Source: Deltaproteobacteria bacterium
Lineage (GTDB): Bacteria > Desulfobacterota > Binatia > HRBIN30 > JACQVA1
DNA length: 64,000 bases
Reading direction: 5' to 3'
Assembly: GCA_016178705.1 (NCBI GenBank)
Contig: JACOST010000017.1
Span: 1 to 64,000, forward strand
Shown here: piece by piece, positions 40,120 to 53,515 of the stretch
How positions within the stretch are numbered: the first letter of the stretch is position 1
Layout of the letters: every line of letters starts with the position of its first letter
Notes under the pieces: generated by a model
Told to the model about the DNA's origin: nothing
The model's input: the letters and a program-made list of their open reading frames with translations, nothing else
Databases searched by the model: none
Made by a program: the position numbers and the translations under genes

Positions 40120-40443
40120 TCAGTGGTGCGTCGCCAGCGCGCGCTCTGCGCCGGCTGGCGGGGCTGTGATCCGGCGGACCTTGATGCGGTGAGCGGTCTT
40201 CTCTGCTCGGGCGAGGTCGTACTGCATCTGAAGGCCGAGCCAGACCTCTGGGCGGCTGCCGAAGGCCTTGGATAGGCGTATCGACATCTCCGGAGAAATC
40301 CCGGCCTTGCCGTTGACGAGATTGTTGAGGGTCTGACGCTTCACGCCGAGTCGCTCGGCCGCCTCAGTGATGCTGAGGCCCAGCGGTTCAATGCACTCTT
40401 GCCGGACAATCCGGCCGGGGTGCGGTGGGTTCTTCATGGGCAT
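40120..40443 (-). CDS. higA: HigA family antitoxin
   Basis: A 107-residue Xre-type HTH protein: '[20 protein letters not shown]' is the HigA N-terminal signature ('HPGxxLxxxxL'), followed by '[20 protein letters not shown]' (HTH) and '[20 protein letters not shown]'. It binds the HigB toxin and its own promoter. It is encoded after the toxin, the order typical of higBA. Start at 40443 or at the ATG two codons inside. Confidence 0.9.
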
Positions 40444-40457
40444 GGCCGTTTTCCTTC

Positions 40458-40736
40458 CTAGTGGTAGTCGACCAGGTCAACATCGTAAGCGTCGCCTTCC
40501 CGAAATCGGAAGATGACGCGCCAGTTCGCTCGGACAGTCACACTCCAAAAGCCCTTGAGATCTCCCTTCAGAGGGTGGAGTCGGAAGCCGGGCAGGTTCA
40601 TGTCTTCAGGCTGACGGGAGCGATCCAGAACAGCCAGGATGTTTTCTACCTTCTCGAGGTGATCCGGGCGGATGCCTTTGGTCTCCCCGTTCTCGAACAG
40701 CCGCTTGAGGCCCCTATGTCTGAAGCCTTGAATCAC
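40458..40736 (-). CDS. higB: HigB/RelE family toxin
   Basis: A 92-residue RelE-fold protein starting '[20 protein letters not shown]', which is a HigB signature. The catalytic-side residues lie in '[20 protein letters not shown]' and '[20 protein letters not shown]', and it ends 'YH'. HigB cleaves mRNA on the ribosome. It lies 14 bp upstream of higA in one operon. Confidence 0.9.
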
Positions 40737-41240
40737 GGACCATCATGAAGGTGACAAGCGGCAGTTGTCAACGCCCTCCTCGCGGCAGGCGAACAGCGGC
40801 CGAGACAAGCGCGAGGGGTGTATCGGCGAGATCGCGGATGCCATACGTGCTCTGGGCCTAAGACCACGGCGAATCTTCTCTTGCGGTGACCGGGGCGGCC
40901 GAAGTAGAAGGCGAGCGCTCGACGATCGCAATGACACGGGAGGCAAGTCGCTTATGGTGCGAACCGATCGCGACTCTCGAACAATGAAACTCGATCCCGA
41001 ACCGCTGTCGCTCGCGCGAGACGGCCTCTTTCCAGGAAGTCCCGGCAGTGGTTCCGTCATGCCGGCGAAAGCCGGCATCCATGCGGGGGCGAGTGATCGA
41101 GCCTGGATTCCGGCGTTCGCCGGAATGACGATTCGGAAGATCGCTCCATTACATATACATAGGCAAAGCCGGCGTTACGCGACGAGCGAGCTGTGGTTGG
41201 TTCGTCGGCCACTCGTGCCCGACGTGATGCCGGGTCTCTC
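40737..41240. other. Intergenic region with repeat element
   Basis: About 500 bp without a gene. An open frame runs through it, but it includes 'MPAKAGI ... IPAFAGMT', the well-known spurious translation of a dispersed repeat. The promoter of the cytochrome block probably lies near its right end. Confidence 0.5.
41056..41130. repeat. Dispersed inverted repeat (REP/BIME-like)
   Basis: Left arm GTCATGCCGGCGAAAGCCGG (from 41056) and right arm ending CCGGCGTTCGCCGGAATGAC (to 41129) are imperfect reverse complements. Each arm folds by itself: GCCGGC-GAAA-GCCGGC on the left and TTCCGGCG-TT-CGCCGGAA on the right. This element type is widespread in proteobacterial and related genomes. Confidence 0.75.
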
Positions 41241-42737
41241 ATGACAACGAAGTCAGGACCCCGTTGCCGAGCTGGGCTGCTCGCCGCGGCGGCCGTGTTC
41301 GCGCTTGCGACCGCTTACGGCGCCTGGATGTTTCTGCGCGATGTGGCGGTCGACTACGCCGGCGAGGAAGATCACTTCAAGTACGGCTCCACCGGCGGTG
41401 AGCGCGCGTCCGGGTTGCCGTATTGGATCTGGCGCGCGATTCCAGAATTGTTTCCCGAGTATCTCCCCGATCCAAGCGGTGGCTACGCGTCGTTGGGGTT
41501 CATCTTTGAGGACCGCAACGACTTGCCGGACAAGAGTCTGCCGGTGGGGATCTCGAAACGACACTATCGGGGGATCGACCGCGTGTATCTCAACTGCGCT
41601 GCATGTCACACCGGGCGCGTTCGCGACACGCCGGCCAGCCCACCGCGCGTGATCGCGGGAATGCCGGCGAACACGTTCGATCTTGGCGCCTTCCGAGATT
41701 TTCTCTTCACGATCGCGCTCGACGCGAAGTTCAACTCCGAACGTTTCATGCTCACCATCGATCAGCTCGGGGCACGCCTTGGGCTGCTCGACCGCTACGT
41801 CGTCTATCCGCTCGCCGTGTATCTCGTGCGCGAACGCTTGCTGATGTTGCGCAGCCGCTTGCAGTTCACCAACCATCCGCCGTGGTGGGGCCCGGGGCGC
41901 GTCGACACTTTCAATCAACCGAAGGCGCTGCTCAACTTCCGCATGGACAACGCGCCGCCGCAAGAACTCATCGGCAACAACGACTTTCCGTCGGTCTGGA
42001 ATCAACGCCCGCGCGAAGGCATGCGGCTTCACTGGGACGGCAACAACAGCATCGTCGACGAGCGCGACCGCAGCGCCGCATTCGGAACCGGTGCGTTCCC
42101 GCCGACGCTCGATCGCGCCAGCCTCGCCCGCGTCGAACGCTACTTGCTCGACGCCAAGCCGCCGGCGTATCCGTATCCCATCAACCAAGGGCTCGCGGCG
42201 CGCGGGCAGCTGCTCTATCGCGAATATTGCGCGGGCTGTCACGCCACCGACGGCACTCACTTCCGACCGGGCGACGGCAAAGTCGGCACTGTTGAGCCGA
42301 TCGCCGCGATCAAAACCGATCCGTGGCGACTCAACTCGTACACCTACGAGCTGGCGCTGAATCAGAGCCAACTCTACGCCGGCTACGGCGCCGAGCGCTT
42401 CCGGCATTTCCGCAAGACGTTCGGCTACGCCAACACGCCGCTCGATGGCGTGTGGCTGCGCGGCCCGTATCTGCACAACGGTTCGGTGCCGACGCTGCGC
42501 GATTTGTTGGAACCGAGCGCGAAGCGGCCAGAGTTCTTCTATCGCGGTGACGATGTCTACGATGCTCACCGCGTCGGCTTCCGTTCCGATGTCGGAGCGG
42601 AGAACGGTCATCGCTACTTCCCGTTCGATACCGGCGAACCAGGCAATGGCAACTTTGGGCACGAAGGTGCGGCCTTCGGTACGGAACTGCGCGCTGCCGA
42701 CAAGGACGCGCTGGTCGAATACTTGAAGACGTTTTGA
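41241..42737 (+). CDS. Di-heme c-type cytochrome, membrane-anchored
   Basis: A 498-residue protein with an N-terminal hydrophobic helix (about 10-31) and two heme motifs, CAACH (119-123) and CAGCH (330-334). Between them comes 'NDFPSVWNQRPREGMRLHWD', and at the end 'DGVWLRGPYLHNGSVPTLRD'. The second segment is common to di-heme peroxidase/RoxA-like cytochromes; a RoxA/RoxB-type (polyisoprene dioxygenase) relationship is possible but not shown. It acts in the periplasm. The ATG at 41241 is preferred over the longer frame. It is first of four related genes, 15 bp ahead of the next. Confidence 0.82.
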   Translation: MTTKSGPRCRAGLLAAAAVFALATAYGAWMFLRDVAVDYAGEEDHFKYGSTGGERASGLPYWIWRAIPELFPEYLPDPSGGYASLGFIFEDRNDLPDKSLPVGISKRHYRGIDRVYLNCAACHTGRVRDTPASPPRVIAGMPANTFDLGAFRDFLFTIALDAKFNSERFMLTIDQLGARLGLLDRYVVYPLAVYLVRERLLMLRSRLQFTNHPPWWGPGRVDTFNQPKALLNFRMDNAPPQELIGNNDFPSVWNQRPREGMRLHWDGNNSIVDERDRSAAFGTGAFPPTLDRASLARVERYLLDAKPPAYPYPINQGLAARGQLLYREYCAGCHATDGTHFRPGDGKVGTVEPIAAIKTDPWRLNSYTYELALNQSQLYAGYGAERFRHFRKTFGYANTPLDGVWLRGPYLHNGSVPTLRDLLEPSAKRPEFFYRGDDVYDAHRVGFRSDVGAENGHRYFPFDTGEPGNGNFGHEGAAFGTELRAADKDALVEYLKTF

Positions 42738-42752
42738 ACACGGAGCGACGTG

Positions 42753-44198
42753 ATGGACAAACCGACTCGATCGCGGTGGCGTGTAGCGATGGTGATCTTC
42801 GCGGTGCTCGGCGTTGGTGTCGCCGGGTTGGCATACGTCGGCTGGTACAAGTTACTGCGCGAAGTGCCGGTGAAGTACGCGTTCCGCAGCGACGCCGAGC
42901 GTTTCATGTATGGCTCGCTGGGAGCGGAGAACGATCAAGGCATTCCGTACTGGATCTTCGTGGTGTTGCCGCGCGTGTTCCCAGAGTACTTACCCCGTGC
43001 CGGCGGTTACGCCGCGCTCGGGCTGCCGTGGCAAGAGGGTCACGCACTCCCGGTTGGCTTTCCGAAACGCATCATCGGATTTCCGCGCGTCGGCAACAAC
43101 TGCGCAGTCTGCCACACCGCGACCTATCGCACGCAGCCGGACGAGACGCCGCACTTCGTGCCCGGGGGGCCCTCGCACACTTCGAACGCGCAGGCGCTGT
43201 TGCGCTTCCTCACTCGCTGCGCCGCCGATCCACGTTTCAGCGCCAACACGCTGCTGGCCGAGATCGAGCAGAACTACCACTTGGGCTGGATCGATCGCGT
43301 GCTGTACCGCTTCGTCATCATCCCGCTGACCAAGAAGCGGCTGATCGAACGCGGCGAGAGTTTCGCCTGGATGAACCGCCCCGGCTGGCCGGATTGGGCG
43401 CCGGGTCGCGACGATCCGATGAACCTGACGAAGTATTTCATGTTGCACCTGCCGATGGACGACACCGTGGGCGCCGCTGATTTTCCCGCGATCTGGAACC
43501 TGCACGCGCGCCCCGATCAGTTGCTGAACTGGGATGGCGCGACCACCTCCGCGCGCTCGGTGATCATCGATTCGGCCCTCGGCTTAGGCGCGCCGCCGCA
43601 CGATGCGTTTCTAAAACAGATGCAGTGGCTGGAAGACTTCTTGCGCACGTTGCCGCCGCCGAAGTATCCACTGCCGATCGACCCGACGCGCGTGGCGAGC
43701 GGCAAGCCGGTGTACGATCGCTACTGCGCGGAGTGCCACGCCGAAGACGGCCCGCGCACGCGCAAGGTGATCGACATCAACGAGATCGGCACCGATCGCA
43801 ATCGCCTCGACACCTGGACGCAGGCGGCGGCCGACGGCGCCAATAACACGGTGAAGAGTTTCGGCATCGATCGCTCGCCGATGATCAAGACCAACGGCTA
43901 TATCGGCCATCCGATGGACGCCATCTGGCTGCGCGCGCCCTATCTCCACAACGGCTCGGTGCCGACGCTGCGTGCGCTGCTCGATCCACCGGCGCAACGG
44001 CCCACCGTCTTCTACCGCGGCTACGACGTGCTCGATCCGGTCGACGTTGGCTTCATCAGCACCGGCGCCGAGGCCGAGCGTGTCGGTGTCCGCTTCGATA
44101 CCCAGGTGAAGGGCAATGGCAATCAGGGGCACTTGTACGGTACACAGCTTCCGACCAACGAGAAGGATGCGTTGATCGAGTATCTCAAGACACTGTGA
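42753..44198 (+). CDS. Di-heme c-type cytochrome, paralogue
   Basis: A 481-residue paralogue of the preceding protein. It has an N-terminal TM anchor ('VAMVIFAVLGVGVAGLAYVG'), CAVCH (117-121) and CAECH (325-329). It shares 'DFPAIWNLHARPDQLLNWDG' and 'DAIWLRAPYLHNGSVPTLRA'. The two hemes are about 210 residues apart in both, so the pair arose by duplication. GGAG lies 7 bp before the ATG. It could oxidise the same or a related substrate, or pass electrons to its neighbour. Confidence 0.82.
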   Translation: MDKPTRSRWRVAMVIFAVLGVGVAGLAYVGWYKLLREVPVKYAFRSDAERFMYGSLGAENDQGIPYWIFVVLPRVFPEYLPRAGGYAALGLPWQEGHALPVGFPKRIIGFPRVGNNCAVCHTATYRTQPDETPHFVPGGPSHTSNAQALLRFLTRCAADPRFSANTLLAEIEQNYHLGWIDRVLYRFVIIPLTKKRLIERGESFAWMNRPGWPDWAPGRDDPMNLTKYFMLHLPMDDTVGAADFPAIWNLHARPDQLLNWDGATTSARSVIIDSALGLGAPPHDAFLKQMQWLEDFLRTLPPPKYPLPIDPTRVASGKPVYDRYCAECHAEDGPRTRKVIDINEIGTDRNRLDTWTQAAADGANNTVKSFGIDRSPMIKTNGYIGHPMDAIWLRAPYLHNGSVPTLRALLDPPAQRPTVFYRGYDVLDPVDVGFISTGAEAERVGVRFDTQVKGNGNQGHLYGTQLPTNEKDALIEYLKTL

Positions 44199-44222
44199 GG
44201 GACCTCAGGGGAGGAGAGGAGC

Positions 44223-46616
44223 ATGACACGTCGCTCAATCGTTTCGGTTGCGATCATGTTGTTGGTCATCGCCGCGCGTACCAGCTTCGCGGCGACGCAG
44301 TCCAGCGTGTGCGATACCACGCCGGGTCTCAGCGAGTCTGAACGCGCCGGCTGCCGGATCTGGATCTACGCCACCGCCGGTGATCAACGCTTTCACACCT
44401 ATACGTTCCAACAGCGGATCGGTGTGCTCGTCGATTGGTTCCTGGTGCTGCACAGCGCCGCGCGCGATCAGCGCTTCAAGACGTGGGGACTCATCAACGA
44501 CCCGGATTGCTGCGTGCCCGGCACGCCCAACTGTCCGGCCAAGAGCCTCGACGAAACCTACGGCTTCGATTGGTGTCCCGGTGATGAGGATCTCCTCAAG
44601 TTCGTCGGCAAGCCGGGCTACCGCGACCCGGCGTGTGACTTCAAGGATGTGCCGCTCGCGAAAGATGATCCGCACGGCCCGGCTGACCAACGCCAGAATC
44701 CCTGCGACCTCGCGTTCGGTACTTCGACTGGCGCACTCGGCTTCCGCAAGTTTCCCAATCCGCGCTTCAATCCCGCGGCGTGGACGAAGGTCAACGGCCA
44801 CCCCGGAACTTGGGAAGGATTCGACCGCAAACTCAGCACGGATCAGAGCAACCCCGACTCACGCATCAGCCGCATGGCGGACGGGTCGATCGAGCCGCCG
44901 TTCCTGGTCGGCATGGCGTGCGGCGCCTGTCACATCGCGTTCGATCCGGTCCACCCGCCGAGCGATCCGGCGCATCCGCGGTGGGCGAACATTCTGCCGG
45001 CGGTCGGGAATCAGTACCTTCACATCTCCGAAATTCTGGCGTCGGGCATGACCAAGCACGCGCTCGAATGGCAAGTCTTCGCGCACGCGCGGCCGGGCAC
45101 CGTCGACACCTCCGCCGAGCCCAACGATCAGATCGACAACGCCGGCACCATGAATGCGTTACTCGACCTGCCGCGCCGGCCGACGTTTCAGGAACAGGTG
45201 ACCAAGTGGCGCAAGGTGCAGGCGTGCCCGGCGGGCGCGAACGACGATTGTTGGTGCGAGCCCGGGCGCACCGGCAAGTGCTGGCTGCGCAGCACGCAAA
45301 CCGAAGCCGTCATGCACATTCTGAAGGACGGTGCGGACAGCATCGGCCCGCTCGAAGCGCTCCAGCGCGTCTACATCAACATCGGTTCGTGTTCCGAGCA
45401 GTGCTGGCTCAATCACCTCACCGATCTGCGGCAGCTCGATCCGGCCCAGCGCAACTTCGGTCAGACGCCGTTCGAGATTGGCCAGTGTCGACGCGATTGC
45501 CCGAACTTTCGCGCCATTGAAGACCGGCTGGCAGACATCCTCAACTTCCTGCTCTTGACTCGCGCCAACGAACTCTACGAAGCGCGCGGCCTGCCCGATG
45601 CCGGCGACCTCGTCGAGCAGCTCGACGGCGAGTTCGGCGCCGGTGCGGTGTCGCGCGGCAAGCATGTGTTTGCAGCCAACTGCGCGCGCTGCCACTCGTC
45701 ACAGCCGGAGCCGTTCGACAATCGCGACTTCCGCGAAACGGTCGCGCTCGATGGCCGCAACATTCGCAAAGACTTCCTCAGCACCGATCAGCCGCTGCTG
45801 GTCTCCGAGATCGGCACCAACCGCTGCCGCGCGCTGCACTCGAATCACATGAAGGGCCATGTGTGGGATCAGTACGCCTCCGACACCTACCATGCGCGGC
45901 CGCCCGACCCGAATCTGAAGGAGCCCGACGACGGTGGCCGCAGCTACTATCGCAACGTCTCGTTGGTGAGCGTGTGGGCGCATGCGCCGTTCATGCACAA
46001 CAACGGCATCGGACCCGAAATCTGCGGCAGCGAGGAATTGTATCGATCGCCCTATGTCGATGCGCAAGGCCAGCTGCTGGCTAACCCTCCCGCGTGTTGG
46101 CCGTACGACCCGAGCGTCGCGGGTCGCTACAAACTCTACAAAGCCTCGATGCATGAGCTGTTGTATCCGAAGCAGCGCATTCCGAAGACGATGAAGCTAG
46201 ACGCCGACATCATCGTCGATTTCGGTCCCAAGATCTTCGGCGCGCAGCACGCGGAGGGCATGGCCATCCGCATCCCGCAAGGCACCAACGTCGGGTTGAT
46301 GGGCAACTTCCAACACAAGCAGTTCGTCATCGATCTGGTGCTGGCGCTTACCAATCAGGACACACTGCGCACCAGGTTGGCGACACGCGTCGGGCCGGAC
46401 AAGGCCAGGACCTATGCCGACGACATCCATGCGATCGCGCTCGAAGTCGTCAAAGCACCGACGAAGATGATCGACATCGTCGCGGCGCGCTTGCCGATGC
46501 TCTTGGAGCTGTACTCGTCGTGTACGGATAGCGTGGAGAACGACGGCCATCGCTTCGGCGAGGATCTGCCCGACGCGGACAAGAACGCGCTGATCGCGTT
46601 CCTGGCGACGCTGTAG
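44223..46616 (+). CDS. Large exported di-heme cytochrome c-like protein
   Basis: A 797-residue protein with a cleavable signal peptide ('VAIMLLVIAARTSFAATQSS'), CGACH (233-237) and CARCH (487-491). The heme spacing is wider than in the two preceding genes because of a Cys-rich insertion between the hemes ('DDCWCEPGRTGKCW', 'CSEQCW'). It ends like its neighbours with an 'ALIAFLATL' helix; 'VSVWAHAPFMHNNGIGPEIC' matches their PYLHNGS region. GGAGAGGAG precedes the ATG. Periplasmic; substrate unknown. Confidence 0.78.
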   Translation: MTRRSIVSVAIMLLVIAARTSFAATQSSVCDTTPGLSESERAGCRIWIYATAGDQRFHTYTFQQRIGVLVDWFLVLHSAARDQRFKTWGLINDPDCCVPGTPNCPAKSLDETYGFDWCPGDEDLLKFVGKPGYRDPACDFKDVPLAKDDPHGPADQRQNPCDLAFGTSTGALGFRKFPNPRFNPAAWTKVNGHPGTWEGFDRKLSTDQSNPDSRISRMADGSIEPPFLVGMACGACHIAFDPVHPPSDPAHPRWANILPAVGNQYLHISEILASGMTKHALEWQVFAHARPGTVDTSAEPNDQIDNAGTMNALLDLPRRPTFQEQVTKWRKVQACPAGANDDCWCEPGRTGKCWLRSTQTEAVMHILKDGADSIGPLEALQRVYINIGSCSEQCWLNHLTDLRQLDPAQRNFGQTPFEIGQCRRDCPNFRAIEDRLADILNFLLLTRANELYEARGLPDAGDLVEQLDGEFGAGAVSRGKHVFAANCARCHSSQPEPFDNRDFRETVALDGRNIRKDFLSTDQPLLVSEIGTNRCRALHSNHMKGHVWDQYASDTYHARPPDPNLKEPDDGGRSYYRNVSLVSVWAHAPFMHNNGIGPEICGSEELYRSPYVDAQGQLLANPPACWPYDPSVAGRYKLYKASMHELLYPKQRIPKTMKLDADIIVDFGPKIFGAQHAEGMAIRIPQGTNVGLMGNFQHKQFVIDLVLALTNQDTLRTRLATRVGPDKARTYADDIHAIALEVVKAPTKMIDIVAARLPMLLELYSSCTDSVENDGHRFGEDLPDADKNALIAFLATL

Positions 46617-46633
46617 CCGGACAGGAGGGAGCC

Positions 46634-47530
46634 ATGCGAGTCGATTCAATCGGGCACTATCACTTGCTTGTAGTTGCGGCAGTCTGCGCGGTGTTGATGG
46701 GCTGCCATCCCGAACCCAGTCGGCCGGCGGTCAGCTTCGCGCCGTCCGGCGACGGCAAGGGCTACCATGACAAGATGGATCTCGCCAAGGTCGAGCAGAC
46801 GCAGCCGCTCAGTCGCGCCGAGCGCAACCAACTCACGCCGCAAAATCTCAAGACCCTCACCCAGGAGGAGATCGATCAGATCTACGCGCGGTTGACCGCC
46901 GGCCCGATTCCGGATGGACCGTTCGATGGCGGCGTCTACTTCGCGCAGGGTACGGGCTTGGACACCATCGCGGAACAAGTCGGTGGACTGAAGGGTGCCG
47001 TGATCGAGCTGAAAGCCGGCGCGCTGCAGCATCTGGCGGAGACGTTGTGGCAAGGCAAGGTCTTCTACCGCGATCAACGCGTGTTGCGGAACCGGATCGA
47101 GAACACCGCACTGCTCACCCCCCTGCTTGGCGGCGATCTCGGTGACCTCAAAAACATTGCGAAGATCAGCGTGAACGGGAAGGACGCCTGGTTGCTGTTT
47201 CCGGCGAAGCTGTACTGCGGGCAAAGCTTGCTCGATAGCCGACGTGAGTCGATCATCATCGATTACGCGTTTACCGACGAGGTCGAGGGCTATCGCGAAA
47301 TGCCCGACAAGCTCGCAGGGCGCAACGGCTTCCAAGTGCGCGATGAAATTCGCATGGTACGCCCGGGCTTCTACCTTGGTCGCGCCTATCTCGGCCGCGT
47401 GTTTGCGCTGAACTTCACCCTCTACAACGAGGAGCTTGCCAAGCGCGACGGCCCGGCGTTCGACGACAACAAAGCGATCGCCGAGGATTGCTGGATGGGA
47501 ACACAGGTGCCAGTGGCCACCGCAAAGTAA
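46634..47530 (+). CDS. Lipoprotein, unknown function
   Basis: 298 residues with a lipobox 'AVLMGC' (Cys near 24) after a hydrophobic signal, so it is anchored as a lipoprotein. No heme motif. 'DKMDLAKVEQTQPLSRAERN' and 'GAVIELKAGALQHLAETLWQ' show nothing I recognise. It lies 17 bp after the large cytochrome and is followed by another cytochrome, so it probably serves the same module, for instance as a scaffold or substrate-binding part. AGGAGGGAG precedes the ATG. Confidence 0.7.
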   Translation: MRVDSIGHYHLLVVAAVCAVLMGCHPEPSRPAVSFAPSGDGKGYHDKMDLAKVEQTQPLSRAERNQLTPQNLKTLTQEEIDQIYARLTAGPIPDGPFDGGVYFAQGTGLDTIAEQVGGLKGAVIELKAGALQHLAETLWQGKVFYRDQRVLRNRIENTALLTPLLGGDLGDLKNIAKISVNGKDAWLLFPAKLYCGQSLLDSRRESIIIDYAFTDEVEGYREMPDKLAGRNGFQVRDEIRMVRPGFYLGRAYLGRVFALNFTLYNEELAKRDGPAFDDNKAIAEDCWMGTQVPVATAK

Positions 47531-47574
47531 CAGGGCGCCGTCGCAGGGTGCGTGAGAAGCGAATAGCTGTGTCT

Positions 47575-47609
47575 GTCATTCTGAGCCCCTCGACTTCGCT
47601 CAGGATGAC
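47575..47609. repeat. Dispersed hairpin repeat overlapping a start codon
   Basis: GTCATTCTGAGC (47575-47586) and GCTCAGGATGAC (47598-47609) are reverse complements with one mismatch; 'CCCTCGACTTC' lies between. This is a known kind of short dispersed hairpin element. Its right arm contains the ATG (47605) used by the next cytochrome gene. Confidence 0.7.
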
Positions 47610-49782
47610 CATCACGGTGTTGGTGGGCGTTGCCCTGCTCGGGCTGCGCTCTCCCGCCAGCGCCGCCGAGCCGTCGCACTGGGCAGTCGATCCCATGCAA
47701 CCGGGCGACAACCTGCCGCCCGTCGGCCGCTCGCTGTTCGACTTTCTCGTCACCAAGCGGGACGGACCCACGATTCGTTACAACGTCCCGTTTCCGTTCA
47801 ACGCGCTGCTGGCGACGATCGATGCGCGCTTCGAACATCCGGCCGGGGGACCATCGCCCCTCAAGCGCGTGTTGATTCCGCTTGGTCGTTCGTTGCAACG
47901 GCTAGCGGCGGCGCCCGAATTCTTCGCCTTCCCGCGCGTCGTCGTCGCTGTCGACGGTGAGGGAGTGGCGCCGCCGGGGCAGTCTGGGATGTTACTGAAG
48001 GATCGCGTCTATCTCGGCTACCAAGAGAAAGGCAGCGTCGTGGAAGTCATCAGCTACAACGAGGCGGCTGCGCGTTTCGAGTTTCAAGTAGTGAAGGACT
48101 ATCGCCCCGGCGGTTCGCCGCAGGTGTTCTACGCCAATCGCACGGTGTGTACCGCCTGTCATCAGAATCAGGCGCCGATCTTCTCGCGCGCCGAGTGGCA
48201 AGAGACCAACGCGAATCCCGCCATAGCGAGTCTGTTGCACGGCGTGCGGCGTGAGTTCTACGCCGTGCCGATCGATCAAGGCGTCGACATCCCGTTGGCA
48301 ATTCAGAATGCCGCCGAGCGCGCCGACCGCTTCGCGGCGGTGCAGCGGCTGTGGCAGCAAGGTTGTGGCGAAACGGAGGACGCGGCGGTCGCGTGTCGTG
48401 CCGCAGCACTGATCGGTGCGCTGCAGTATCGTCTTAGTAGCGGCCGCGGATTCGATCGCCGCGCGCGTGCCTACCGCGAGGACTTCGCTCCGGTTGTGGC
48501 GCACCAAGTTGACACGCGTTGGCCCGGCGGTTTGCAGATTCCGAATCCGGATTTGCCCAATCGTAATCCATTGCAGGGCTTCGTTCTCGCTGACGCTGCC
48601 GACGTCGGAACAGAGATGTTGCGAGCGGCCAATGTGGCTGCGCCCTTCGACCCGCTCAATCCGCGTGCGCCGTTGGAGGGATGGAGCGCGGAGGCCAGCG
48701 ATCGTCTGATCACTGGACTAACCGAATTCCTCACCGTCGCCGATGTGCGCGCCTTGGACGAGGCGCTCGCCAGCAAAGCCCACGGTGCCGCCCGTCACCG
48801 TTACACCACGCCGTGTCTGTTCACTGCGACGTGCAAGGGTTCCGCGCTCGGCCGCATGAAGGTGCTCTGTGAGGGCGAGCGCGTGCAGATCGACGGCCGG
48901 CTCTATTTCGATGACGACGCGGTGAAGAGCGGCACGCTGACGCGCGTCACTATGCCCGAGGCGGAGGAGATCCGCGATGTCCGCGTGGCCACTGGGGCTG
49001 TCGAGCGTCGCGGCAATGAATCCATCGTCAGGCTCGACCTCGCATCAGAGGATGCTGGCCTGCACGTGCGTCGCAGCGATGGCCACGCGGTCGAGCGGAT
49101 CGAGTTGCAATGGCCGGCCACTCTGCCGAGCAGCGCTCCTGGCGAGTTCAGCTTCTTGGGTCAGGCCACCGTGGTGATCGTCGAGGATTTTGCGACGGTG
49201 CCTACCGCCGTGGCGCGGCTGGTTCAGCAGGCGCGCGCGGGCAGCTCCGACGCGTTGTCGGCACAGCCGTTTCGACGCGCCACCGTGGTGCGCTCGCTGC
49301 AAGCTGAACTCGGCATGTCGCCTCGCGCGTGGTGTTGCGAAGACGCTGCCGGGATGCCCCCCGCTCAGATGGAGACAGGCAACGACGGCGTCCCGCGCCC
49401 GCCGGATTTCGGCGCGACCGCCGAGCCCGCGCTGGCGCTGTTCTATTCGCACTGCGCGTTCTGTCACCAGGGCAGCGCTCGCCTGCCGCCGAACTTTCTA
49501 ACCGGCACCGCCGAGCAAGTGCGCGCCAAGCTGGCGCACTGCGCCGAGCGGATCTACGCGCGCTTGGACATGTGGCAGCTCCCCTCCGCGCAGCGCCCGA
49601 AGACGCCAATGCCGCCGGCGACGTTGCAAAACGGCGTCGATGCGCCGCCGCATCCCGACTACCTCGTCCTCCGCGCCTACGCGGCGCGACAGCTCGCGAG
49701 TCAGGGCGGGCACGTCCCGCGAGCGGCGGACTATCCGCTCCGCAACTACGAAGACTTGCAGCCGTGCCTGCCCGCATCGTGA
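47605..49782 (+). CDS. Exported di-heme cytochrome c-like protein
   Basis: 725 residues with a signal peptide ('ITVLVGVALLGLRSPASAAE'), CTACH (182-186, followed by 'QNQAPIFSRAEWQETNANP') and CAFCH (617-621). The middle region is beta-rich. The heme spacing (about 435) differs from its neighbours, so it is a different subfamily. The ATG at 47605 starts right at the signal peptide but lies in a repeat arm, with no Shine-Dalgarno; the longer frame (from 47488) would overlap the lipoprotein gene and includes the repeat, so I reject it. An extracytoplasmic redox partner of the block. Confidence 0.75.
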   Translation: MTITVLVGVALLGLRSPASAAEPSHWAVDPMQPGDNLPPVGRSLFDFLVTKRDGPTIRYNVPFPFNALLATIDARFEHPAGGPSPLKRVLIPLGRSLQRLAAAPEFFAFPRVVVAVDGEGVAPPGQSGMLLKDRVYLGYQEKGSVVEVISYNEAAARFEFQVVKDYRPGGSPQVFYANRTVCTACHQNQAPIFSRAEWQETNANPAIASLLHGVRREFYAVPIDQGVDIPLAIQNAAERADRFAAVQRLWQQGCGETEDAAVACRAAALIGALQYRLSSGRGFDRRARAYREDFAPVVAHQVDTRWPGGLQIPNPDLPNRNPLQGFVLADAADVGTEMLRAANVAAPFDPLNPRAPLEGWSAEASDRLITGLTEFLTVADVRALDEALASKAHGAARHRYTTPCLFTATCKGSALGRMKVLCEGERVQIDGRLYFDDDAVKSGTLTRVTMPEAEEIRDVRVATGAVERRGNESIVRLDLASEDAGLHVRRSDGHAVERIELQWPATLPSSAPGEFSFLGQATVVIVEDFATVPTAVARLVQQARAGSSDALSAQPFRRATVVRSLQAELGMSPRAWCCEDAAGMPPAQMETGNDGVPRPPDFGATAEPALALFYSHCAFCHQGSARLPPNFLTGTAEQVRAKLAHCAERIYARLDMWQLPSAQRPKTPMPPATLQNGVDAPPHPDYLVLRAYAARQLASQGGHVPRAADYPLRNYEDLQPCLPAS

Positions 49783-49830
49783 GGCGGCGTTGCTTGCATC
49801 GCGACGCTTGTTGGCGGTAGGTGCTCGCCC

Positions 49831-50730
49831 ATGACTGACGTACAGGCGTACTACACGCGACCGGGTGTGATGACCGATCCGGGACCGCTGGCGGAACGTT
49901 TTCGCGATCTGCCGGCCGGCGTTGCCTCGCTGCGTGATGTCGTGCAAGGCGTCTTGCTGCACGTACACTGGGCGCAGCGGTACGGCGTCACGCTGCCGCC
50001 CGAGCGACAGCACGAGGTGCAACTCCGATCGACGAGCGAGATGCTAGGCCGCATTGGCGAACTCGACCCCAGTCCGTTGAACACCGCGCGCCCGGTCGAT
50101 CGGCGGTTGGTGGGCAACTGCCGCCACTTCTCGACGCTGCTCTGTGCGATGCTGCGCCACCAAGGCGTACCGGCGCGTGCGCGCTGCGGCTTCGGTGCGT
50201 ACTTCCTGGCGGGCGAGTTCGCCGACCACTGGGTGTCCGAATATTGGAACCCGACACAGGCGCGCTGGGTGATGGTCGACGCGCAACTCGATGCGTTGCA
50301 GCGCCAGAGCTTGCAGCTCCCGTTCGATCCGCTCGACGTTCCCGGCGATCAGTTTCTGGTTGCCGGCAAGGCGTGGCAGCGGTGTCGCGCGGGACAGGCC
50401 GATCCGCAACGCTTCGGCATCTTCGACATGCGCGGCCTGTGGTTCATCCGCGGCAACCTGCTGCGCGATCTCGCCGCGCTCAATCGGGTCGAGCTGTTGC
50501 CGTGGGATGCGTGGGGGATGATGTCCAACGTCGACAGCGATCTCAGCGAGGACGATGCGACGTACCTCGATCGGATCGCCGCGCTGACGCAGGCAGGCGA
50601 CGGCGCTTTCACCGAATTGCGCGCGCTGTACGAAGGCGACGCGCGCTTGCGCGTGCCGCGCGTCGTTCGAAGTTTCACGCAAAGCGGAGTGTTGAGCGTC
50701 ACGCTGCCACCGGGAGTGGACGACAACTGA
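49831..50730 (+). CDS. Transglutaminase-like domain protein
   Basis: 299 residues. The papain-like triad is clear: C97 in 'GNCRHFSTLLCAMLRHQGVP', H133 in 'FADHWVSEYWN' and D150 in 'WVMVDAQLD', the order and spacing of the transglutaminase core. No signal peptide, so it is probably cytosolic. Family members are mostly cysteine proteases or peptide-bond rearranging enzymes; substrate unknown. It lies 48 bp behind the last cytochrome and converges on the LMF-like gene. Confidence 0.8.
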   Translation: MTDVQAYYTRPGVMTDPGPLAERFRDLPAGVASLRDVVQGVLLHVHWAQRYGVTLPPERQHEVQLRSTSEMLGRIGELDPSPLNTARPVDRRLVGNCRHFSTLLCAMLRHQGVPARARCGFGAYFLAGEFADHWVSEYWNPTQARWVMVDAQLDALQRQSLQLPFDPLDVPGDQFLVAGKAWQRCRAGQADPQRFGIFDMRGLWFIRGNLLRDLAALNRVELLPWDAWGMMSNVDSDLSEDDATYLDRIAALTQAGDGAFTELRALYEGDARLRVPRVVRSFTQSGVLSVTLPPGVDDN

Positions 50731-52949: not shown

Positions 52950-53192
52950 ATGGCGTCGGCAAAGGTAGCCGTTTCTCTTGACGAGGGTGTTCTCACACGG
53001 CTGGATCGTCTTGTGCGGCAGCGGGCGTTTCCGAACCGCAGCAAGGCGATCGAACAGGCCGTGAAGGAAAAGCTGGAACGTCTCGATCGCTCGCACCTCG
53101 CCCGGGAGTGCGCCAAACTCGACCCAGCGGTCGAGAAAGCGTTCGCAGACGAAGGGCTGTCGGGAGAGCTGGCCGAATGGCCGGAATACTGA
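52950..53192 (+). CDS. Ribbon-helix-helix antitoxin (MazE-like)
   Basis: An 80-residue protein: 'AKVAVSLDEGVLTRLDRLVR' starts with an RHH beta-strand, and 'RSKAIEQAVKEKLERLD' gives the helices. The acidic C-terminus 'DEGLSGELAEWPEY' probably wraps the toxin. This is the NdoAI/MazE-type antitoxin of the CopG/RHH class. The ATG follows GAGGTGAG. It overlaps the toxin gene by 16 bp. Confidence 0.82.
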   Translation: MASAKVAVSLDEGVLTRLDRLVRQRAFPNRSKAIEQAVKEKLERLDRSHLARECAKLDPAVEKAFADEGLSGELAEWPEY

Positions 53193-53515
53193 GAGGTGAT
53201 GTTGTTTGGGCTGAACTCAGCCCGGCTAGAGGTCACGAACAGGCGGGGATGCGGCCAGTGGTGGTTGTGAGTCACGACATCTTCAACGAGCGATCCGGAA
53301 CGGTCATCGCGATGGCAGTGACAAGCCAAGCGCAGCGCGCTGGCTTTCCGCTCACGATGGAACTCACGAAGGTGCGGCTGCCCAAACGTTCTTGGGTCAA
53401 GATCAGTCAAATCCGCACGCTCTCGGTGGAACGCCTTGGTAGGAAATTGGGCCGGGTGACGCCCGAAGAGTTGGACCGGCTCGTCGATGGACTCAATGAG
53501 ATCGTCGGAAGCTAG
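53177..53515 (+). CDS. MazF/PemK family toxin
   Basis: A 112-residue protein: 'ILRGDVVWAELSPARGHEQA' (the GDVVWxxL-P-x-x-G-H-E motif) with 'RPVVVVSHDIFNERSGTVIA' and 'KRSWVKISQIRTLSVERLGR'. Sequence-specific ssRNA endonuclease family. It starts inside the antitoxin gene (ATG 53177), so translation is coupled. It ends shortly before the convergent ridA gene. Confidence 0.88.
   Translation: MAGILRGDVVWAELSPARGHEQAGMRPVVVVSHDIFNERSGTVIAMAVTSQAQRAGFPLTMELTKVRLPKRSWVKISQIRTLSVERLGRKLGRVTPEELDRLVDGLNEIVGS

Follow-up and report, generated by a model that had tools for sequence, protein, structure and literature searches.

Gene content and organization of the block

The window analyzed here, the whole 64,000-nucleotide stretch (bases 1-64000 of contig 17) from the 6.1-Mb genome of a Deltaproteobacteria bacterium (GCA_016178705.1), contains five co-directional genes, designated A to E, at positions 41241-49782 (Table 1), which are a conserved unit. 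A, B, C, and E code for exactly two CxxCH heme-binding motifs each and are the only genes with this motif among the 55 called in the window, with an expectation from composition of ~0.004 motifs per 1,000 residues. A preliminary description of this DNA, made from the sequence alone, had placed the block with the correct coordinates, strand, and direction, and its count of four two-motif proteins, the tandem paralogy of A and B, the larger size and different heme spacing of the other two cytochromes, and the lipoprotein nature of D all held up in our analysis.

Table 1. Genes of the block and the adjoining gene F (positions in the window).
Gene	Position	Strand	Product and features
A	41241..42737	+	498-aa RoxA-like di-heme protein with N-terminal anchor; predicted oxygenase (W265, F281, H123, H334, H474)
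B	42750..44198	+	482-aa paralogue of A; both heme sites kept; Leu277 at RoxA Phe317, Trp261 at Trp302
C	44223..46616	+	797-aa exported (by eye) di-heme protein; distantly RoxA-like; C-terminal H776 aligns with RoxA H641
D	46634..47530	+	298-aa lipoprotein; possible lipocalin/fatty acid-binding protein (FABP)-like barrel in AlphaFold2 model
E	47605..49782	+	725-aa exported (by eye) two-heme protein; family unnamed; heme region at the N terminus, 8-stranded barrel in the center (~395-528), cytochrome c-like C-terminal end
F	49831..50730	+	Transglutaminase-core protein; no export signal visible; neighbor outside the conserved unit

Going by the coordinates, the intergenic spaces are 12 bases (A-B), 24 bases (B-C), 17 bases (C-D), 74 bases (D-E, with E taken from ATG 47605), and 48 bases (E-F). 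E probably starts at or near this ATG rather than at the start of the listed open reading frame (ORF), because the upstream part of the latter overlaps D and crosses a short repeat-like stretch. Such palindromic repeat-like stretches were seen at 47574-47609, at the start of E, and at ~41050-41140, upstream of A; a 33-base piece of the former has one further match in the genome (E value of 1e-7). A scan of the region for promoters and terminators gave no more than the chance expectation.

Export signals were judged by eye, without a signal-peptide program. In A and B, the N terminus is a helix resembling a signal anchor; in C and E, it looks like a cleavable signal; and D carries the lipobox LMGC at its N terminus. 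No export signal was visible in F, so that export is supported for A to E but not for F. The sequences of the block proteins fit a location in the periplasm or at the membrane surface, and do not by themselves support the extracellular setting suggested earlier.

Sequence families of the block proteins

The CxxCH motifs are found at residues 119/330 in A, 118/326 in B, 233/487 in C, and 221/656 in E (numbered from TTG 47488), with heme spacings of 211, 208, 254, and 435 residues, respectively. A and B are paralogues sharing 39% identity over 501 aligned positions, and both match the RoxA-like_Cyt-c family PF21419 (E values of 1.6e-15 and 8.6e-15) and pass the 150-bit cut-off of NF040606, the di-heme-cytochrome C peroxidase model (180.8 and 173.8 bits), with RoxA (4b2n) as their best solved relative. 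Neither C (33.7 bits) nor E (no match up to an E value of 0.1) is a member of NF040606, and the idea that all four cytochromes are RoxA-like or di-heme peroxidases is upheld for A and B. The same applies to the segments described as shared: PYLHNGSVPTL occurs in A and B, but C has only APFMHNNGIG and E contains none of HNG, HNN, or WDG; HWDGNN appears as such in A, while B has NWDGAT. A rubber-oxygenase identity is not sustained either, as the curated RoxA, RoxB, and RoxC models (cut-offs of 1000, 900, and 900 bits) give only 52.0, 55.1, and 75.3 bits for A and 59.7, 59.8, and 67.8 bits for B.

The same genome codes for two core di-heme-cytochrome C peroxidases on contig 33, 10 kb apart (G000:C33:285379-287112 and 297159-299141, L032), and as these score 520 and 542 bits against NF040606 versus 181 and 174 for A and B, the latter represent an outlying branch of the family. 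Another 1219-amino-acid protein of this genome with two CxxCH motifs is coded on contig 14 (L034:6744-10403), near a gene that by eye is a GMC-type oxidoreductase. A tree of 35 rows places the A and B sequences, which come from several phyla, together in a group of 28 (support 100/99), with seven other RoxA-like proteins outside it. All B sequences fall in one clade (99/99), and so do the A sequences (95/87) except for the Qingshengfaniella row. From this topology, the A/B duplication looks older than the spread of the block.

The remaining proteins are more difficult to place. C is only weakly RoxA-like, its profile finding RoxA first (E value of 9.2e-5) through a C-terminal stretch that includes the heme-2 distal His, and ordinary c-type cytochromes next, at 4e-4. 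D gave no match in Pfam, NCBIfam, or the sequences of solved structures, and one Trp and four Tyr are invariant over 21 sequences. E has no Pfam or NCBIfam family above cut-off, its cytochrome c matches being weak and confined to at most 8 of the 23 members; the residues invariant over these 23 include both heme motifs and Met669, located in a PMPP stretch, a Met of this kind being typical as a heme ligand. We also considered E, from its size and heme content, as a fatty-acid cis/trans isomerase, and no such Pfam match was found in the 23 members.

Catalytic residues of A and B

In the alignment with RoxA (4b2n), W265, F281, and H474 of A correspond to W302, F317, and H641, whose roles are described in PMC6311187. 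We counted residues at these positions in 82 A sequences besides that of the window and in 66 B sequences, leaving out rows of 450 residues or fewer (one A and 15 B). Within the A family, the bridging Trp is found in 82/82 and the distal Phe in 75/82 (otherwise Leu in four, Met in two, and Tyr in one), so that the conservation of a distal residue that the preliminary description had singled out for checking is confirmed. The tested heme Cys and His residues are kept in 82/82, and by alignment the CxxCH His H334 and the H641 equivalent H474 are likewise both present in all of them. The B family has Leu (64/66) or Ile (2/66) in the F317 position, and its W302 position is occupied by Phe (24), Tyr (21), Trp (12), or Leu (9), Trp being the residue in the window. 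The His positions are kept throughout the B family, except for one gap. As A keeps both Trp and Phe and B has lost the Phe, A looks like a working oxygenase and B like its diverged partner.

Conservation of the block

A genome collection (84,980 species by its own description) was scanned with an alignment of A, which gave 338 relatives, and the best 80 loci were mapped for all five genes. The order on one strand was C-D-E-A-B in 47 loci, E-A-B in 11, D-E-A-B in two, and E-A in one, and in the 14 shorter loci with E the contig starts within ~30 bases of the first mapped gene. E is found next upstream of A in 61/80 loci, two of which have larger gaps of 2.9 kb (L091) and 0.8 kb (L107). Five of the other 19 are uninformative, with contigs starting <500 bases from A, and 14 lack E. 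The single operon proposed earlier is upheld for A to E, as 47/80 loci have the genes together in one block rather than dispersed, most of the others being cut by the contig start or belonging to a second form. Most carriers among these 80 are Rhodocyclales and other Pseudomonadota, together with Nitrospirota, and include Thauera, Azoarcus, Zoogloea, Accumulibacter, Propionivibrio, Dechloromonas, Azotobacter, Pseudomonas fluorescens isolates, and Nitrospira. In nine Acidobacteriota loci (L046, L054, L058, L072, L075, L077, L090, L092, and L100) and in L085, the A ORF has a long extra part (951-1135 amino acids) and the B ORF has merely 237-412, which suggests a rearranged A/B pair. No description of the five-gene unit or of the E family was found in the open-access literature searched.

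F had been regarded as a member of the operon. No relative of F was detected in the 80 loci (E value of 1e-8), and its 13 non-self carriers among the 145 genomes of the class of the window differ from the 10 non-self carriers of C. Since F also lacks an export signal, we place the end of the block at E.

The order in the window, A-B-C-D-E, is a rotation of C-D-E-A-B. Within the class, a C relative is present in 11/145 genomes, including that of the window. Ten C regions from nine genomes of the class were compared: A and B lie alongside in the order D-A-B-C in three, a fourth has D and C apart, and a GMC-like gene is beside or near C in eight (judged from ORF beginnings and checked with Pfam in L022). 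Near C in Binatia (L022:3882-9096; L030:5453-6526), we also saw a DyP-like peroxidase below the curated cut-off and proteins that by eye look like catalases, with no NCBIfam match. Searches of 145 genomes in the class and 395 in the phylum, which may miss distant relatives, gave E only in the genome of the window; the sensitivity of such genome-wide searches is limited, that for D having missed short D relatives found by region comparison in four genomes. A tblastn search did not find E in the ten C regions of the class, and no match to E was obtained on plasmids at an E value of 1e-3. In a tree of C (40 rows, after dropping half of the rows of type I), the forms with E (type I) and without E (type II) are fully separate, and the C of the window joins type I, outside the other 24, with a modest support of 84. 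We infer that the block of the window was probably acquired by horizontal transfer and rearranged from C-D-E-A-B to A-B-C-D-E.

Predicted folds of D and E

The AlphaFold2 model of D, built from 21 sequences (predicted local distance difference test [pLDDT] of 82.5), has Tcur_1030 (4mve) as its best match (Foldseek E value of 4.2e-4; VIA Z of 10.3, root mean square deviation of 3.1, 138 aligned residues). It is followed by two hemoglobin linker chains (Z of 5.6 and 5.5) and then by lipocalin-, avidin-, and FABP-type barrels at Z of 4-5, near background. D may be a lipocalin/FABP-like barrel. The model of E (23 sequences, pLDDT of 83.7) gave no Foldseek match below 1e-3. Its barrel (395-528) was considered as a candidate allene oxide cyclase/calycin-type fold, and the likenesses among the matches listed are all near background, to 2q03 (Z of 8.2), PloI4 (7.9), the outer-membrane barrel NspA (7.6), and AbyU (6.9). 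PloI4 and AbyU are cyclases, and the matches listed for the barrel barely cover the heme regions of E.

Forms without E and genomic neighbors

The fetched flanks of the 14 loci without E contain a GMC oxidoreductase in eight, an animal-type heme peroxidase in two, and neither in four. Plasmid neighborhoods were examined in 9 regions of the 51 records with a match. On Rhizobium and Sinorhizobium plasmids, the order is NADH:flavin oxidoreductase (PF00724, OYE-like), A, a 143-amino-acid protein, B, C, GMC oxidoreductase, and patatin-like phospholipase; among these records, one fuses the 143-amino-acid protein and B as one coding sequence and one calls the last gene hypothetical. The small protein between A and B was considered as a D homologue and discarded, as it shows no likeness to D by blastp or with the D profile and is similar only to a small Qingshengfaniella protein. 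As it is not detectably related to D, the rhizobial form comprises only A, B, and C of the five. This family of 137-143 amino acids adjoins A in both rhizobia and Qingshengfaniella (L035:13410-13841; L037:11449-11862), in a D-like place with unrelated sequence. In Qingshengfaniella, A is found with an animal-type heme peroxidase, a flavin adenine dinucleotide enzyme, the small protein, and a hydrolase, in the order peroxidase, flavin enzyme, small protein, A, hydrolase, without B, C, or D. More distant RoxA-like genes on pNGR234a, in Paracoccus yeei, and in R. phaseoli adjoin genes annotated as catalase, peroxidase, or patatin.

Beside the C-D-E-A-B form, a search for a constant extra partner by clustering of neighboring ORFs (from rough ORF calls) gave one family in at least five loci, a response regulator found in six in varied positions. 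Patatin-like ORFs precede C in L043 (905-3910, 243 bases away; 27.9 bits against a cut-off of 27.7) and in L107 (1370-4051, 59 bases away; 26.7 bits, just under). ORFs with TIR domains follow B by 27-46 bases in three loci (L078:10656-12272, L102:12982-14259, and L110:12954-14693), a CHAT ORF with TPR-S lies 354 bases before C (L063:1-3867), and caspase-type C14 and DUF4062 domains are present in two neighbors each. TIR, CHAT, and patatin-like types are known from immunity and cell-death systems. TIR_2 occurs in 4/53 first ORFs after B; on the other side, it does not appear in the 25 most frequent families of the 43 ORFs immediately preceding C. The 243 TIR hits counted in 34 carrier genomes give an expectation of ~0.16 for these 96 ORFs (the gene number being assumed); the post hoc P value is ~2e-5, uncorrected for the families examined, and TIR is over-represented beside the block, as we noticed after the fact. 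An anti-phage system was considered and set aside, PADLOC giving no match for A to F at an E value of 0.01.

In the window, the region is flanked by genes that by eye resemble toxin-antitoxin systems (HigBA-like at 40120-40748, minus strand; MazF-like at 53108-53515, plus strand), and beyond F a homologue of the lipase maturation factor LMF1 (PF06762; 50759-52300) converges on the block from the other strand.

Proposed function and alternatives

Our best reading is that the block works like the PA2077/PA2078 pair of Pseudomonas aeruginosa (FadCcp), not like a rubber oxygenase. These two tandem periplasmic RoxA-like di-heme proteins are described as a 10S-DOX fatty-acid dioxygenase (PA2077) and a diol synthase (PA2078), the latter converting the hydroperoxide and protecting from the toxic product (PMC4496055). 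According to the same source, PA2077 keeps the W302 equivalent and loses oleate conversion when mutated in either heme His, while PA2078 has Ser there, keeps the Phe, and has hemes reported to be dispensable. The pair has been tied to signaling (PMC5155153, PMC6377657), with homologues reported in other genera (PMC6377657).

By analogy, we propose, with a probability of roughly 0.46, that A to E would form a horizontally spread operon of the envelope, complete in itself, for the oxygenation of an unsaturated lipid, with free or membrane-derived fatty acyl chains as the most likely substrate; of the two types of substrate named in the preliminary description, lipid fits better than polymer. D, as a lipoprotein with a predicted hydrophobic barrel, may hold or deliver the lipid. 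A would bind O2 at its N-terminal heme and add it to a C=C bond, as RoxA and 10S-DOX do, yielding a hydroperoxide, which B, with both hemes but without the distal Phe, would turn over by isomerization or reduction as the second enzyme of the tandem pair. C and E could carry electrons to or from A and B or further modify the product. We favor this function because A keeps the W302 and F317 equivalents and the heme Cys and His residues while B has lost the F317 equivalent, because such a division of labor between tandem RoxA-like paralogues is published for PA2077/PA2078 (PMC4496055), and because the D model matches Tcur_1030, with lipocalin, avidin, and FABP barrels below. It is also consistent with the genomic context, since enzymes of the lipid or hydroperoxide type (OYE-like, GMC, patatin, animal-type heme peroxidase) accompany relatives of the block, distant RoxA-like genes adjoin catalase-, peroxidase-, or patatin-annotated genes, and patatin-like ORFs precede C in L043 and L107.

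Several observations weigh against lipid oxygenation. The lipid enzymes belong to the form without E, and seeds for GMC, peroxidase, OYE, and the rhizobial patatin matched nothing beside the C-D-E-A-B form, which has no recurring neighbor gene except the regulator in six loci. The rhizobial and Qingshengfaniella operons have no D, and the plasmid relatives in Methylobacterium and Geminocystis are without neighbors of the catalase, peroxidase, or patatin type. The D barrel may bind a non-lipid ligand, and none of the five families has a known substrate or activity. The proposal is at its weakest on the nature of the substrate and on what C, D, and E do. As for the parallel with PA2078, it is imperfect, as most B sequences are aromatic at the W302 position. 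PA2078 keeps the Phe lost in B, the B of the window keeps the Trp lost in PA2078, and the heme spacing is 245/235 in PA2077/PA2078 versus 211/208 in A/B.

The main rival, unlikely but the strongest of the alternatives, is a peroxide-detoxifying relay in which A and B would be true di-heme peroxidases reducing periplasmic H2O2 or lipid hydroperoxides, with C and E delivering electrons and D tethering the complex. The NCBI model passed by A and B bears this very name, an operon with several cytochromes would suit an electron relay, the C-terminal end of E resembles a Met-ligated carrier (M669 invariant in 23), and in 4/53 loci, possibly near relatives of each other, the ORF that follows B has a redoxin domain. 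However, A keeps the Phe and Trp tied to RoxA oxygenase activity, and at 181/174 bits A and B are far from the core of that model, unlike the other copies of the genome (520/542 bits). If the relay were instead a purely electron-transferring chain, respiratory or extracellular and without lipid substrate, the eight heme sites over four proteins would be accounted for, and many carriers are Rhodocyclales, several of which we take to be denitrifiers or phosphorus accumulators; we think this improbable, as the open distal pocket of the RoxA type is unneeded for pure electron transfer and the 25 most frequent domains listed for the genes flanking either side include neither a terminal reductase nor a porin family. 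A little more room may be left for a MauG-like maturation, still a rather improbable one, in which A and B oxidize residues of a partner protein (D or E) to build a cofactor or crosslink: both contain the MauG-type motif PYLHNGSVP, D has its invariant Trp and four Tyr, and C, D, E, A, and B occur together in 47/80 loci. A fixed protein substrate is unlikely, though: the rhizobial operon has no D, the second form has no E, and the relatives of D vary from the 298-amino-acid lipoprotein to 143-amino-acid proteins without signal. Cleavage of polyisoprenoids such as rubber by RoxA/RoxB-type chemistry is the least credible alternative; no solved structure is closer than RoxA, and A retains its catalytic residues, but the RoxA, RoxB, and RoxC models give 52-75 of 900-1000 bits, A has 498 residues versus 662 in the RoxA chain, and to our knowledge the carriers of the block are not known as rubber degraders.

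Lipid oxygenation by the block may also have a bolder and unlikely version, in which C-D-E-A-B would be a complete new envelope oxylipin pathway. Here A would make lipid hydroperoxides, B and E would convert them, and D would carry them, the products being signals or antimicrobial or stress lipids. If so, the occasional adjacency of TIR, patatin-like, CHAT, and caspase genes would hint at a link with bacterial immunity or cell death.

We know of few RoxA-like di-heme enzymes with a known substrate. In this block, a RoxA-type protein whose catalytic residues are intact is accompanied by its diverged paralogue, by a further di-heme protein, by a lipoprotein modeled as a barrel, and by a member of an unnamed two-heme family. 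The unit is shared across several phyla, with named isolates of Azotobacter, Azoarcus, Thauera, and Pseudomonas among its carriers, and makes testable what RoxA-like enzymes oxidize and whether oxylipin-like pathways are common in bacteria.

Comparison with known systems

The RoxA-like superfamily is already known, as are tandem di-heme fatty-acid oxygenases, and the block resembles several described systems in part. The barrel modeled for D may be akin to that of Tcur_1030 (4mve; Z of 10.3), but D differs from Tcur_1030, lipocalins, and FABPs in its N-terminal lipobox and extra helices and in having no Pfam match, classical lipocalins and FABPs appearing only at Z of 4-5. The di-heme-cytochrome C peroxidases of NF040606 include A and B by score, yet the 28 sampled rows of these two make up a group separate from the seven other RoxA-like proteins, and C and E fall below the model. 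A shares with RoxA and RoxB (4b2n; PMC6311187) the heme ligands, the PYLHNGSVP motif, the distal Phe, the bridging Trp, and local sequence similarity, while A and B are shorter, score far under the curated RoxA, RoxB, and RoxC cut-offs, and are part of an operon with C, D, and E. The comparison with FadCcp, which rests on published values, gives proteins of 634/624 amino acids in a two-gene operon versus 498/482 for A and B. Both systems nevertheless consist of tandem exported RoxA-like di-heme paralogues of comparable divergence (43% identity there versus 39% between A and B), and in both pairs the first protein keeps the W302 equivalent and the second is more diverged.

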